Shown piece by piece: positions 26,236 to 31,505 of a stretch of 64,000 bases of DNA. Every line of letters begins with the position of its first letter. Within the stretch, counting starts at the first letter, position 1. The notes below the pieces were generated by a model. That model searched no databases. It was not told where the DNA came from and saw only the letters and a list, made by a program, of their open reading frames with translations. The translations under genes and the position numbers were made by a program. The DNA comes from Sinorhizobium saheli (GTDB lineage: Bacteria > Pseudomonadota > Alphaproteobacteria > Rhizobiales > Rhizobiaceae): positions 62,001 to 126,000 of the forward strand of contig NZ_LNQB01000071.1 in NCBI RefSeq assembly GCF_001651875.1, read 5' to 3'.

Positions 26236-26610
26236 TCAGTTTGCGGCTTCTTCGGCGGCGGCTTCGGTCTTCTTCGAAGCCTTCTTCGCCTTGCCGCCGC
26301 TGGCTGCGACGTCCAGGATGCGGACGGTCGTCTGATGCTGGCGATGGCCGCGCGAGCGCTTGGAGTTCTGGCGGCGGCGCTTCTTGAAGGCGATGACCTT
26401 CTTGGCGCGGCCCTGTCCCACGACCTCGGCGCTGACGACGGCACCTTCGACAAACGGAGCGCCGATGGTGGCATCGGCGCCGGTGCCGACCATCAGGATC
26501 TCGGTGAATTCGATCTTGTCGCCTTGGACGCCTTCCAGCTTCTCGATGGTGATGACGTCGTTGGCCGCCACGCGGTACTGCTTACCGCCGGTCTTGATGA
26601 CTGCGAACAT
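26236..26610 (-). CDS. rplU: 50S ribosomal protein L21
   Basis: 124-residue L21, a 23S rRNA-binding protein. It begins [20 protein letters not shown], with AAAGGAC before the ATG at 26610. The core ends near residue 100 ([20 protein letters not shown]) and is followed by a Lys/Ala/Glu-rich tail ([14 protein letters not shown]) that is absent from the short E. coli-type protein but common in rhizobia. First gene of the rplU-rpmA operon. Confidence 0.97.
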
Positions 26611-26781
26611 ATTTTGTCCTTTCATGTTCGGTCCGGCTCTTTGCCTTAAAAAGGCAAGGCCGTCTTTTTATCAGTCGTTACATTAGAGCGAAGCGCCTCG
26701 GGAAACCCTCGACCTTCGCCAGTGAACGGGCACGAACACCCGGGTCGCGGCGCGGGATGACCCCACACCACCTCATGGCGC

Positions 26782-26810
26782 GGATTACGGGAGTCGCCCT
26801 TGCTTGTCAA
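26782..26810 (-). promoter_or_regulatory. Candidate rplU-rpmA promoter
   Basis: On the minus strand CTTGACA (the -35 TTGACA complementary to 26805-26810), then a 17-base spacer and TAATCC (26782-26787). The -35 is a perfect match and the -10 is weak. It would give a leader of roughly 165 bases before rplU. Confidence 0.45.
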
Positions 26811-26851
26811 GGCGGAAGCCGCCCGATGGCAGATATTCTTCCAAAGAGCCC

Positions 26852-26880
26852 TTGCCAGCGGCAAAAACTGCCGCTATGTA
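26852..26880 (+). promoter_or_regulatory. Candidate tRNA-Ser promoter with palindromic spacer
   Basis: TTGCCA at 26852-26857 and TATGTA at 26875-26880, 17-base spacing. The whole spacer is a perfect inverted repeat, GCGGCA-AAAAC-TGCCGC. Transcription would start about 28 bases before the mature tRNA. Confidence 0.5.
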
Positions 26881-26914
26881 CCGCCCGCGCTCAAACAGCG
26901 CCAACCGGCCCCGC

Positions 26915-27006
<92 letters not shown>

Positions 27007-27258
27007 GGCAAATCTCGGCGATCGCCCCAAATGCGGATCTGTCCCCAGCTCACACCCGGGATGCCGTCTGGCTCACACGCTTAGTTACGGCTGACGTTTC
27101 GCGCGGAGATTCTTTCCCGCGTCCGTTTACTCATCAGTCATGTGGAACCGGTATTTCTCGCATAACTTGCCGAGAGGCGCGCTCTTACCATGGACGTTGT
27201 CGGTTCAGAGCACCTGCAGGCTAGGAAAGGTGTGCCACAATTCTACCGAGGCGGCGAC

Positions 27259-28455
27259 ATGGAAGCTTTAGCTTATCGAATTCTACAGATCGGAGAATTA
27301 GGCTCGCTCGCGTTGGCATGGGCGGTCCTATTCGTCTCGGCGGCGGCCGCCCTGGCTTTCACAAAGTACGAACTTAAGCTCAGCCGGCCAGCATACTTCC
27401 TGATAACGGGTCTGTCGTTCCTCCTTTGTGCAATGACTTCGCTTTTTGCTCTTGGAATCCAGGACGCCATTAAGAATGACTACCTCGCGGCAATCGTCGC
27501 CCTGAGCTATGGTTCGCTAATCCCAATCGGGGCTCTTGCCGGGATCAGCGCAGCGGCGCGGTCGAACGATGCTTATGGCACGCGAGACAAGTGGTTCCTG
27601 TCCTTTGTCCCATTCGCGAACCTGGCCTTGCTGTTCGCGGCGTCCCTGGAAAGGCCGGAATCGGGTATCCCGCGGGTCGTGAGGAGCATCGTGCTCGTCA
27701 CGTTGGGCGTCCTGATGATGGGAGCAGCAGAAGGGGTTAGCCGGTGGGTCGAGAGGCAGGCGGCTCAGGCAGCCGACGGAGCACAGAATGATGCGCAATT
27801 GCAAGATAAAGTCATCCGGTACGAGGTGCAGAATAATGGCTTGGAGGCATCTCTGAAGGAAGCGGCGGAAGCCATTCCCGTGCCAGCGAAGCTCGATGCC
27901 ATCACCAGCCTGAAGGCGGTAGAGGTCGACAAGGAGACGTTCCGTTACGTTTATGAAATTTCGGATAAAAACGCCAATTTTTCCAGTAGTTGGCAGGATA
28001 TAATGACAAATAGGTGGTGCAAGTCGCCGGACTTCAAGGCGATGATCGACTTAGGCGCAACCGTCGAAGGAAAGTACGTATCGCAAGACGGACAACAGCT
28101 TGCCAGCTTGCGGGTCAGCACGGCGTTGTGTGAGCAATGGCGATCCCAGTTCCAGAAGGCCATGGAGGACGCCGCCAACGCCATAAAGGGACCGACCAAG
28201 CTCGATGAGGTCACCACATTGATGGGCGCCGACTACAAGGACGGCACCTTCAGCTACTACTACACGTTTGCTTTGCTGCCGCGGGATCCTGCGTGGAAAG
28301 AATACATGAAGAACAGGTGGTGCCAGACTGATCAGTTCAAGGCAATGATGGCGGTGGACCTCGACATCCGCGGTGTCTACACGACCGAGACCAACGCGCC
28401 GATCGGCGAGGTTCTTGTCAATTCAAGGATATGCGGCACCTCAGCGCTCAATTAG
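27259..28455 (+). CDS. Membrane protein of unknown function with duplicated two-Cys C-terminal domain
   Basis: 398 residues from ATG 27259 (GAGGCGG upstream; an ATG at 27190 would add 23 residues). Residues about 15-160 hold five hydrophobic segments, including KWFLSFVPFANLALLF. After a short linker (about 161-204) come two related units. Unit 1 (about 205-292) has AKLDAITSL, FRYVYEI, NRWCKSPDFKAMI and LRVSTALC. Unit 2 (about 308-392) has TKLDEVTTL, FSYYYTF, NRWCQTDQFKAMM and VLVNSRIC. Each unit has two cysteines (C254/C291, C355/C392), suggesting a disulfide in the periplasm. No family recognised. Codon use is less GC-rich than in its neighbours, and its place just after tRNA-Ser suggests acquisition; no integrase or duplicated tRNA end is visible. 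Confidence 0.75.
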   Translation: MEALAYRILQIGELGSLALAWAVLFVSAAAALAFTKYELKLSRPAYFLITGLSFLLCAMTSLFALGIQDAIKNDYLAAIVALSYGSLIPIGALAGISAAARSNDAYGTRDKWFLSFVPFANLALLFAASLERPESGIPRVVRSIVLVTLGVLMMGAAEGVSRWVERQAAQAADGAQNDAQLQDKVIRYEVQNNGLEASLKEAAEAIPVPAKLDAITSLKAVEVDKETFRYVYEISDKNANFSSSWQDIMTNRWCKSPDFKAMIDLGATVEGKYVSQDGQQLASLRVSTALCEQWRSQFQKAMEDAANAIKGPTKLDEVTTLMGADYKDGTFSYYYTFALLPRDPAWKEYMKNRWCQTDQFKAMMAVDLDIRGVYTTETNAPIGEVLVNSRICGTSALN

Positions 28456-28458
28456 ACC

Positions 28459-28483
28459 GGGATGCGCTCACATGCGTTCGCGC
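28459..28483 (+). repeat. Element B, fragment
   Basis: GGGATGCGCTCACATGCG-TTCGCGCC, identical to the left end of copy 1, directly after the stop of the tRNA-adjacent membrane protein gene. The rest of the element is missing. Confidence 0.5.
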
Positions 28484-28528
28484 CTCGTGCGGTGCCCTGG
28501 CCTGGCGCCGGCGACACAGCCTTTCGCG

Positions 28529-29035
28529 TTATTCTCCTGCATTCCTCTTCAGCCACGGCTCCAAGGCCGCGATTACCGATAGTCTCAGACTGGCGTTGCG
28601 GGTGAGCGCGCGGGCGAGCGGGCGACCGTCGGGCGGGAAGCCCAGCTCGGCCATTACCTCGTCGGCTTTCAGCCGGCGCCGCGCCATTATCGACCGGATC
28701 GCGGCCACCGTCGCGGGAAGCAGGTAGCGGCCGCTGGCGATCGGCGCGGCCAACAGGTCGGCCGGACAGACGGTGGAGGGGGCTGCGTCGGCCGGGGGGA
28801 GCGCGCCGGTGGCGGCGAGCCAGGCGAGGAAGCCGTCGCGCTCGGCGTCGCTCGCCTTCAGCCAGGAATTCTTGAGCTTCTCCAGCCGCGTGCGCTCGGG
28901 CTTCAGGCCGGCAAGCACGAGCGCCTGGCGCAATGACGGGATCCGGCCGGCCGCGAAGGCGGCGTGGAGGTCCGGAAACTCGGCCTTGAGCCGCTGCAGG
29001 TGATAGGCCTCGTCGCGCTTCGTCTTCTTCGCCAT
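28529..29035 (-). CDS. Hypothetical protein (168 aa, helical, basic)
   Basis: 168-residue soluble protein starting MAKKTKRDEAYHLQRLKAEF with CGGAG upstream. Predominantly helical, rich in Leu, Ala, Arg and Lys; two halves joined by a Pro/Ala-rich segment (GALPPADAAPST). The second half reads RYLLPATVAAIRSIMARRRLKADEVMAELGFPPDGRPLARALTR-like sequence, suggesting a helix-turn-helix or other nucleic-acid-binding helical bundle, but I do not recognise a named family. No signal peptide or membrane segment. Codon use is typical of the core genome. Confidence 0.65.
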   Translation of the reverse strand: MAKKTKRDEAYHLQRLKAEFPDLHAAFAAGRIPSLRQALVLAGLKPERTRLEKLKNSWLKASDAERDGFLAWLAATGALPPADAAPSTVCPADLLAAPIASGRYLLPATVAAIRSIMARRRLKADEVMAELGFPPDGRPLARALTRNASLRLSVIAALEPWLKRNAGE

Positions 29036-29074
29036 CGTCTGCTCCGAAGGTGATTTCCGTCGTCCGAAAGCGCC

Positions 29075-29166
29075 GCGCTCGAATGCATTCAGGCGACGCG
29101 CTTCAGGGCCCTGCTTTCATGCCTGTCGTGTCGCAAGACCGCTGCACCCTTTCGGGCGACAGGCAT
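29075..29166 (-). repeat. Element C, copy 2 (inverted)
   Basis: Reverse-complement relative of 12763-12856: GAATGCATTCAGGCGACGCGC, TTCAGGGCCCTG, then the dyad ATGCCTGTCG ... CGACAGGCAT (29119-29166) around GCAAGACCGCTGCACCCTTTC. Diverged but co-linear. Confidence 0.5.
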
Positions 29167-29168
29167 TA

Positions 29169-29262
29169 GAGCATTTTGCATGGAGGTGGAATCACCTGAC
29201 GGCGCACGAATGCGGCAAAAACAGACAGATGAGCGGCGCGAACGCATGGGACCGCATCCCGC
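29169..29262 (-). repeat. Element B, copy 4 (inverted, near complete)
   Basis: GAGCATTTTGCATGGAGG, GGTGGAATCACCTGACG, CACGAATGCGGC, AACAGACAGATGAGCGGCG and GAACGCATGGGACCGCATCCC follow the reverse order of copy 1. It starts two bases after element C ends. Confidence 0.65.
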
Positions 29263-29377
29263 TCCAGCGCGCAGAAGGGCGGCGCGAGCAAATGCCGCGC
29301 TCAAGTTTTGCGCAAGTCAGCCTTCCTATCGTCGCGGGCACGGCCGGAATGCAATCCGGCGAAGGAAGGACGATGAG

Positions 29378-29539
29378 ATGTCTGACGATGTTGAGCCTTA
29401 CAGCGACCCGCAGGACGCGGCCGTTGCGCTGTTTCTCCTGAACAATGACGGCGACGAACTGACCGATGTCCTGGTCGCCGCGCTCGAGGACGCATTGCGC
29501 ATCCTCGACGAGGAGTGGCCGTCGCGGACCATGCATTGA
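29378..29539 (+). CDS. Small acidic protein of unknown function (53 aa)
   Basis: Begins [21 protein letters not shown], with GGAAGGAC upstream at acceptable spacing. Very acidic, with an amphipathic helix ([21 protein letters not shown]) that could be a protein-interaction segment. It is too short for confident family assignment, but the ribosome site, composition and codon use support translation. It lies between a repeat cluster and typA. Confidence 0.55.
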
Positions 29540-29678
29540 GGCGACGCCCAAGCGGCAATGTGCGGCTGAGTGACCCCTCTGGCCCCTTTCGCGATCGCAA
29601 AAAAACCTGTATGAGCGCGGCAACTGAAAAAGCGGTGCCCGCCTTGCTGCGCGTGCCCAGAACTTTCCGAGAGAAAAA

Positions 29679-31505
29679 ATGAGCATTCGTAACATCGCGA
29701 TCATCGCGCACGTCGACCATGGGAAAACGACGCTCGTCGACGAGCTTCTGAAGCAGTCGGGCGCGTTTCGCGACAACCAGCGCGTCGCCGAGCGCGTCAT
29801 GGACTCCAACGACCTGGAAAAGGAACGCGGCATCACCATCCTCGCCAAGGCGACCTCGGTCGTCTGGAAGGGCGTGCGCATCAATATCGTCGACACCCCC
29901 GGCCACGCCGATTTCGGCGGCGAGGTCGAGCGCATCCTCAACATGGTGGACGGCGCGATCGTGCTCGTCGATGCCTCCGAGGGGCCGATGCCGCAGACGA
30001 AATTCGTCGTCGGCAAGGCGCTGAAGGTGGGGCTGAAGCCGATCGTCGCGATCAACAAGATCGACCGCCCGGATGGCCGTCACGAGGAAGTCATCAACGA
30101 GGTGTTCGACCTCTTCGCCAATCTCGACGCGACCGACGAGCAGCTCGACTTCCCGATACTCTACGGTTCTGGCCGCGACGGCTGGATGAACGTCAATCCG
30201 GAAGGGCCGAAGGACCAGGGCATGGCGCCGCTCTTCGACCTCGTGCTGAAGCACGTGCCGGAGCCGACGGTGGCCGAAGGCCCGTTCCGGATGATCGGCA
30301 CGATCCTCGAGGCGAACCCCTTCCTCGGCCGCATCATCACCGGCCGCATCCATTCGGGCTCGGTCAAGCCCAACCAGTCGGTCAAGGTTCTGGCGCAGGA
30401 CGGCACGGTGCTCGAATCCGGGCGTATTTCGAAGATCCTCGCCTTCCGCGGCATCGAGCGCCAGCCGATCGAGGAAGGCCAGGCGGGCGACATCGTCGCG
30501 ATTGCCGGCCTCACCAAGGGCACCGTCGCCGACACCTTCTGCGATCCCTCTGTCACCGAGCCGTTGAAGGCGCAGCCGATCGATCCGCCGACCGTCACCA
30601 TGTCCTTCATCGTCAACGATTCGCCGCTTGCCGGCACTGAGGGCGACAAGGTGACCTCGCGCGTCATCCGCGACCGGCTGTTCAAGGAGGCGGAGGGCAA
30701 CGTCGCGCTGAAGATCGAGGAATCCTCCGAGAAGGATTCCTTCTACGTTTCCGGCCGCGGCGAACTGCAGCTCGCGGTGCTGATCGAGACGATGCGCCGC
30801 GAAGGGTTCGAGCTTGCCGTCTCGCGGCCGCGCGTCGTCATGCACAAGGACGAGAGCGGCCAGCTTCTCGAGCCGATCGAGGAAGTGGTCATCGACGTCG
30901 ACGAGGAGCATTCCGGCGTCGTCGTGCAGAAGATGTCGGAGCGCAAGGCCGAGATGGTGGAACTGCGTCCGTCGGGCGGCAACCGCGTCCGCCTCGTCTT
31001 CTTCGCCCCGACCCGCGGCCTCATCGGCTACCAGTCGGAGCTTCTGACCGACACGCGCGGCACGGCGATCATGAACCGGCTGTTCCACGATTATCAGCCC
31101 TACAAGGGCGAGATCGGCGGCCGCATCAACGGCGTGCTGCTCGCCAATGAGCCGGGCGAGGCGGTCGCCTACGCGCTCTTCAACCTCGAAGACCGCGGCC
31201 CGATGGTGATCGAGCCGGGCGAGAAGGTCTATGAGGGCATGATCGTCGGCATCCACACCCGCGACAACGACCTCGAGGTCAACGTCTTGAAGGGCAAGAA
31301 GCTCACCAACATGCGCGCCGCCGGCAAGGACGAGGCCGTCCGCCTGACGCCGCCGATCCGAATGACGCTCGAGCGGGCGCTCTCCTGGATCCAGGACGAC
31401 GAGCTCGTCGAAGTGACGCCGAAGTCGATCCGGCTGAGGAAGCTCCACCTCGACCCGCACGAGCGCAAGCGCTTCGAGAAGGCCCGCACGGCCGGCGCGG
31501 CGTAA
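29679..31505 (+). CDS. typA: Translational GTPase TypA/BipA
   Basis: 608-residue ribosome-associated GTPase that aids 50S assembly and growth at low temperature or under stress. G1 is [17 protein letters not shown]3 [15 protein letters not shown]4 [11 protein letters not shown]-like domains III and V and the BipA-specific C-terminal domain ([39 protein letters not shown]) follow. Length and all blocks are intact. A RIME repeat and a good terminator lie downstream. Confidence 0.98.

Follow-up and report, generated by a model that had tools for sequence, protein, structure and literature searches.

The stretch of DNA analysed here (the window) comprises 64,000 nucleotides of the Sinorhizobium saheli genome and contains an open reading frame that begins 254 bp past the end of a tRNA-Ser(CGA) gene (Table 1). 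An earlier note on this DNA placed the reading frame at 27259-28455, directly after a tRNA-Ser, and both the coordinates and the position are correct. A longer version starting from the ATG at 27190 is unlikely, because homologues from other genera align from the same methionine as the frame that starts at 27259. The gene is followed by a fragment of a dispersed repeat and by a gene conserved among congeners. The product of the latter has 168 amino acids and no Pfam match at E 0.001, and the gene is present in the 27 congeners in which the interval at this site is measurable.

Table 1. Features of the tRNA-Ser(CGA) site and of the gene that it carries (positions refer to the window).
Feature	Position	Strand	Basis or remark
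Window gene, 398 aa: DUF805-related membrane domain and two predicted AspS-fold domains	27259..28455	+	ORF, homologue alignment, model
N-terminal membrane domain, residues 1-186, DUF805-related, predicted N-out/C-out	27259..27816	+	
AspS-fold unit 1 (predicted), residues 205-297, Cys254/Cys291	27871..28149	+	
AspS-fold unit 2 (predicted), residues 307-398, Cys355/Cys392	28177..28452	+	
tRNA-Ser(CGA)	26915..27004	+	strain-specific segment has its left edge at the tRNA 3' end
Strain-specific segment, tRNA end to downstream conserved gene	27005..28532	.	right edge uncertain; congener similarity resumes at 28518-28550
30-nt fragment of dispersed genomic repeat	28455..28484	.	inverted relative to 29235-29264
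Downstream conserved gene, right flank of variable site	28529..29035	-	without Pfam match

Comparison with other Sinorhizobium genomes revealed that this site is highly variable. Similarity upstream of the gene ends at 27004-27006, the end of the tRNA, in the 31 of 32 congeners (all but G009) that have an upstream match among those listed, and it resumes at the downstream gene. The interval between the tRNA and the downstream gene is measurable in 27 of the 32, five being left out because their matches lie on separate contigs or opposing strands, or are lacking; it spans 0.2-1.9 kb in 12 congeners and 7.9-72 kb in the other 15. An integrase is located inside the interval in at least six of the long-interval congeners (G002, G015, G016, G019, G020 and G024), and in two of these (G020 and G024) the tRNA region recurs, at 94-95% identity, near the far end of the interval, some 0.9 kb short of the downstream gene, an arrangement that integration would be expected to produce. 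The tRNA-Ser(CGA) gene is therefore a genus-wide insertion hot spot. The window protein has no match in any of the 32 other congeners (G009 and G023 being represented by assemblies that are 70% and 85% complete), and the 12 short-interval sites contain nothing that matches positions 27007-28517 at E 1e-3. Acquisition at the tRNA, as suggested in the earlier note, agrees with this comparison.

The window carries a foreign segment that abuts the 3' end of a tRNA and is absent from congeners, but the integrase and repeated tRNA end of a typical genomic island are missing, as had been remarked before: a direct repeat of the tRNA end of at least 12 nt is not present in 26600-29700, and no integrase lies beside the gene, the nearest on the contig, among the matches listed, being 36 kb away. 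This suggests that the 1.5 kb segment either was imported as a small piece or is what remains of a larger import. The base composition of the gene agrees with import. Its GC content is 56.0% and its GC3 0.693, compared with a mean of 0.822 (sd 0.091) for 48 other ORFs of the window, a crude set that includes spurious frames, five of which have a GC3 as low or lower; its codon fit (0.4675) is the lowest of this set, although barely so (next 0.4684, mean 0.682). The unusual codon use pointed out in the earlier note is borne out, and we consider the gene to be apparently horizontally acquired. The repeat fragment previously noticed after the stop codon is 90% complementary to 29235-29264, which is part of a dispersed repeat of about 105 bp. 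This repeat is represented in the window at 29154-29272, with at least eight further copies in the genome and copies also in congeners; we presume that it may be a RIME-type element.

The C-terminal half of the protein contains a tandem duplication, as the earlier note recognised. Residues 205-292 and 307-392 share 26 identities over 85 aligned positions, with an alignment score of 134 compared with a mean of 24.2 and a maximum of 49 in 2000 shuffles (0/2000 as high), and BLASTP aligns unit 1 with unit 2 at E 9e-17. Each unit has exactly two cysteines (254/291 and 355/392), spaced 37 residues apart in both, and the remaining cysteine of the protein, Cys57, lies inside a hydrophobic segment. 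Both cysteines of the unit are invariant in 12 aligned domains, and likewise in 17. The profile of the two-cysteine domain does not match the membrane domain, so the two halves of the protein are not repeats of each other.

Curated sequence libraries do not assign the protein to a family: nothing in Pfam or NCBIfam exceeds its cut-off, unit 1 reaching only 15 bits against the 25-bit cut-off of T2SSS_2 (PF16549) and unit 2 giving no match to this model. A PDB search with the window protein alone returned only an aldolase at E 0.09. This aldolase and the library matches to Gag_p24, ThrE and AbrB are sub-threshold and were judged to be due to chance. Comparison of structures and profiles, in contrast, identifies the units. 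The AlphaFold model of the whole protein has a mean pLDDT of 85 and a pTM of 0.57, the latter leaving the placement of the domains unsure. Unit 1 of this model superimposes on PA3611 (3npd) with Z 15.2 and an rmsd of 1.7 over 100 aligned residues, followed by EpsS (6i2v, Z 13.9), AspS (4ftf, Z 12.0) and AspS in complex with GspD (5zdh, Z 8.7), whereas the best unrelated chain after these AspS-type structures reaches only Z 5.8. Unit 2, folded alone (pLDDT 89), gives Z 12.5, 10.8, 9.5 and 6.3 to the same four structures, the next row being at 5.5. Foldseek finds 3npd at E 3.6e-4. A profile of 17 domains matches 3npd at E 6.4e-5 and 4ftf at 8.8e-4, but 6i2v and 5zdh only at E ~0.5, and a profile of 11 family members finds both 3npd and 4ftf at E 0.005. 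The two family cysteines align onto the two cysteines of both solved structures. On the predicted structure, then, the units have the AspS/PA3611 fold and are not a new fold. The earlier failure to recognise a family holds for curated sequence libraries and not for fold or profile comparison. We take PA3611 to belong to the Pfam family QSregVF (PF13652).

The cysteine pair of each unit sits at the positions of the alpha2-alpha4 disulfide of AspS. In AspS, Cys74 and Cys111 form a disulfide that is reported to be conserved in PA3611 (PMC3542185), and by analogy each unit of the window protein would be locked by one disulfide. The same report describes PA3611 as small, possessing a signal sequence but lacking a lipoprotein signature, and its authors left the role of PA3611 in the periplasm open; a 2022 paper calls PA3611 secreted (PMC8860233). 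Other proteins with the two-cysteine domain also occur: L106, L025, L023 and L105 have a signal-like or single hydrophobic segment and one copy of the domain. L023, a family match with one membrane segment, passes the T2SSS_2 cut-off (28.6 versus 25 bits), L103, L106 and L107 have no match to Pfam at E 0.01, and L106 alone finds nothing in the PDB. As L023 is the only one of those scanned to pass a Pfam cut-off, the two-cysteine module seems to be wider than the curated families.

The N-terminal half contains five hydrophobic segments by hydropathy, as the earlier estimate of about five membrane segments had it, but the structure model and the loop charges suggest four crossings and one short non-crossing segment, the short helices at 112-125 not traversing the membrane in the model. 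Lys and Arg are frequent in the loops at 34-45 (mean 2.8), 100-113 (2.8) and 127-142 (3.1) and rare at the N-terminus (0.6) and in the loop at 67-76 (0.4), each mean being taken over 9-11 sequences. The stretch at 160-186, past the last membrane segment, has a mean of 2.8 Lys/Arg but 4.1 Asp/Glu. The positively charged loops, combined with the non-crossing helices, place the N-terminus and the C-terminal domains outside, and the cysteine domains are therefore predicted to reside in the periplasm, a location that the earlier note had suggested checking.

This membrane half appears to be DUF805-like in origin. A search with the family profile retrieves a curated DUF805 protein from genome G1000 (E 1.9e-9), and hhalign to DUF805 gives E 4e-4, with a probability of only 34%, and aligns the R-YF, R-x-D and IP positions. 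The window protein scores 12.6 bits against the DUF805 (PF05656) cut-off of 25.7, and although four of 11 family members match the model at E <= 1 (best 0.027), none exceeds the cut-off; we therefore term this half DUF805-related rather than DUF805. DUF805 is not mentioned in the main text of PMC9427106.

The window protein had been described as an orphan, but homologues occur in further genera of the Rhizobiaceae and in other Alphaproteobacteria, and within this class their distribution is sporadic. With its own genome counted in each case, a protein search found relatives in 4/100 relatives and 10/394 family genomes, and a profile search in 19/385 genomes of the class and 7/398 of the phylum. 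Nine of the 19 class matches cover both halves (the own genome, G459, G575, G627, G655, G680, G724, G773 and G785), six comprise the two-cysteine domain only, and four (G547, G592, G633 and G671) are confined to a portion of the membrane half and may not be true members. A scan of named genomes identified one close relative (UBTA01000031.1). BLAST searches of plasmids and phages found no relative, nor did one scan of viral contigs, which reaches close relatives only.

Most members with both halves carry a single unit; two are present in the window gene, G245, G288 and G459. The G245 protein is 49% identical to the window protein, and in the G288 relative the reading frame is interrupted between unit 1 and unit 2. 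A tree of 29 domains places the second units of the window protein, G245 and G288 together (100/98); the three first units also cluster, with support short of the starred level (86/80), and a node at 96/96 unites the six. Both G459 units, the first of which has a long branch, fall in a different starred group (96/90) together with single-unit proteins. This tree omits duplicate retrievals of a locus, the almost identical L009, the fragmentary L033, and L022 from G655, which was missed by the domain profile. The G655 protein matches the profile over its full length and has a cysteine pair of its own at spacing 37. The grouping of the sequences favours at least two separate duplications, the alternative being loss of a unit in other lineages, which the tree also allows. 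The G459 tandem-domain gene (L092, 4209-8581), apparently separately duplicated, is flanked by a Fic gene on one side and a gene for a trypsin-like peptidase on the other.

A search for an operon partner in 17 relative loci and the window revealed no adjacent gene that any loci have in common. Neighbours that recur in at least three loci lie away from the gene and form two groups (in five and three loci), which by Pfam are ABC-transporter ATPases and LysR regulators; as these are very common superfamilies we did not count them as partners. Adjacent genes, for which 20 ORFs flanking the window gene and 11 relatives were searched (3/22 listed ORFs were unscanned), are diverse; the families identified include Mg-chelatase, glyoxalase, universal stress protein, lipoate ligase, T5orf172, Fic and trypsin-like genes, and five of the 20 have no Pfam match. 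Across 18 genomes examined for integrases near relatives, the shortest distance from a full gene is about 9.1 kb (G291); G773 has an additional, fragmentary copy (contig C114) with an integrase at about 5.3 kb. A tRNA is present within 200 bp in three of the 17 relative loci (L085, L088 and L090), which is no more than suggestive, at about 1.4 kb in L082 and at a distance in L092.

We consider it probable, by analogy with AspS and EpsS, that the gene encodes an acquired, inner-membrane-tethered pair of helix-binding periplasmic domains. The DUF805-related domain would anchor the two AspS/PA3611-fold domains in the periplasm, each of which probably grips, in a hydrophobic groove, a short amphipathic helix belonging to a client, an envelope or secreted protein. 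The protein would thus act as a bivalent peptide binder (a holdase or tether) rather than as a lipoprotein pilotin, its gene having presumably entered the tRNA-Ser hot spot by horizontal transfer. EpsS is described as binding the secretin helix in a hydrophobic cavity, the wall of which is held by the disulfide (PMC6532946). When the groove residues given in that paper are transferred to the family through the structural alignment, five of six positions carry a hydrophobic residue in 10 or more of the 12 domains (F228, W245, W253, V269 and Y273 in unit 1; F331, W346, W354, I370 and Y374 in unit 2), whereas the sixth, equivalent to EpsS Ile91, is Gly in six of the 12 and mostly polar in the other six. 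Helix binding would fit this pattern, but so would the mere conservation of a core, whose positions are hydrophobic whether or not a ligand is bound.

The shared fold with AspS and EpsS, and the presence in the genome of three secretin-domain proteins of 447-510 residues, might suggest that the protein is itself a secretin pilotin, either T2SS-like or serving these short secretins, which judged from length alone are probably of the Tad/CpaC type. However, no lipobox or signal peptide is visible by eye, the N-terminus is multi-pass and the first cysteine is residue 57, within a hydrophobic segment. Moreover, the three secretins score 104-158 bits against a GspD cut-off of 351, GspD exceeds its cut-off in only four of 20 carriers, and two of the 20 (G291 and G655) have no match at all to the GspD model. 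The lack of a lipobox and of GspD over the cut-off makes a T2SS role unlikely, and it is highly improbable that the protein is a pilotin of either kind. Equally little speaks for a decaying, non-functional import. Foreign codon use and the broken G288 relative would fit decay, but the window reading frame is intact, and both cysteine pairs, W245, W253 and the membrane motifs are common to the window protein and that of G245 at 49% identity, so that we regard decay as very unlikely.

A role in envelope defence or immunity, such as superinfection exclusion or the neutralising of toxins in the periplasm, deserves somewhat more weight. Carriage as cargo of an insertion hot spot, sporadic presence (10/394 family genomes including its own), duplication of a binding domain and the lack of an adjacent partner common to the loci would all suit such a protein, and a few relatives lie beside T5orf172, HNH (just under cut-off) or Fic genes. 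Nevertheless, PADLOC matches only one of 11 members (AbiEii, E 0.003), PHROGs none of the 11, most identified flanking genes are ordinary and no copy was found on a plasmid, phage or viral contig; we therefore think this role unlikely. It is similarly doubtful that these proteins constitute a mobile alphaproteobacterial family of inner-membrane receptors, in which an AspS fold freed from secretins has been duplicated more than once for bivalent peptide capture in envelope defence or stress. The tethered, bivalent peptide binder outlined above is the reading that we prefer.

Secretin pilotins are the proteins for which the AspS fold is best known. If true, a version that is anchored in the membrane, arranged in tandem and independent of secretins would suggest that this fold serves more generally to bind peptides in the periplasm, and the window protein would be a tractable one with which to find ligands of the fold; the genus-wide tRNA-Ser hot spot is likewise a useful site at which to look for variable cargo. 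Among the titles and abstracts listed by literature searches, none describes a membrane-anchored or tandem AspS domain. What had been singled out as the clearest candidate for undescribed biology in the window is therefore an apparently undescribed architecture, built with a domain of a known kind.

With the AspS/GspS-beta/EpsS pilotins (4ftf, 6i2v and 5zdh; T2SSS_2) the units share the predicted fold and the order of secondary structure, the spacing of 37 between the paired cysteines in the case of AspS, and a mostly hydrophobic set of groove-equivalent positions in that of EpsS. Unlike these pilotins, the window protein is multi-pass, has two domains and no lipobox, and is encoded in a genome without GspD over the cut-off. 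DUF805 proteins may resemble the membrane half in the R-YF, R-x-D and IP positions, which hhalign lines up with those of the window family, and differ from it in that their RLHD motif is replaced by ARS-x-DAYG. Both units match PA3611 best in structure (Z 15.2 and 12.5), but PA3611 is a small protein with a signal sequence, whereas the window protein is predicted to be a membrane-anchored tandem.
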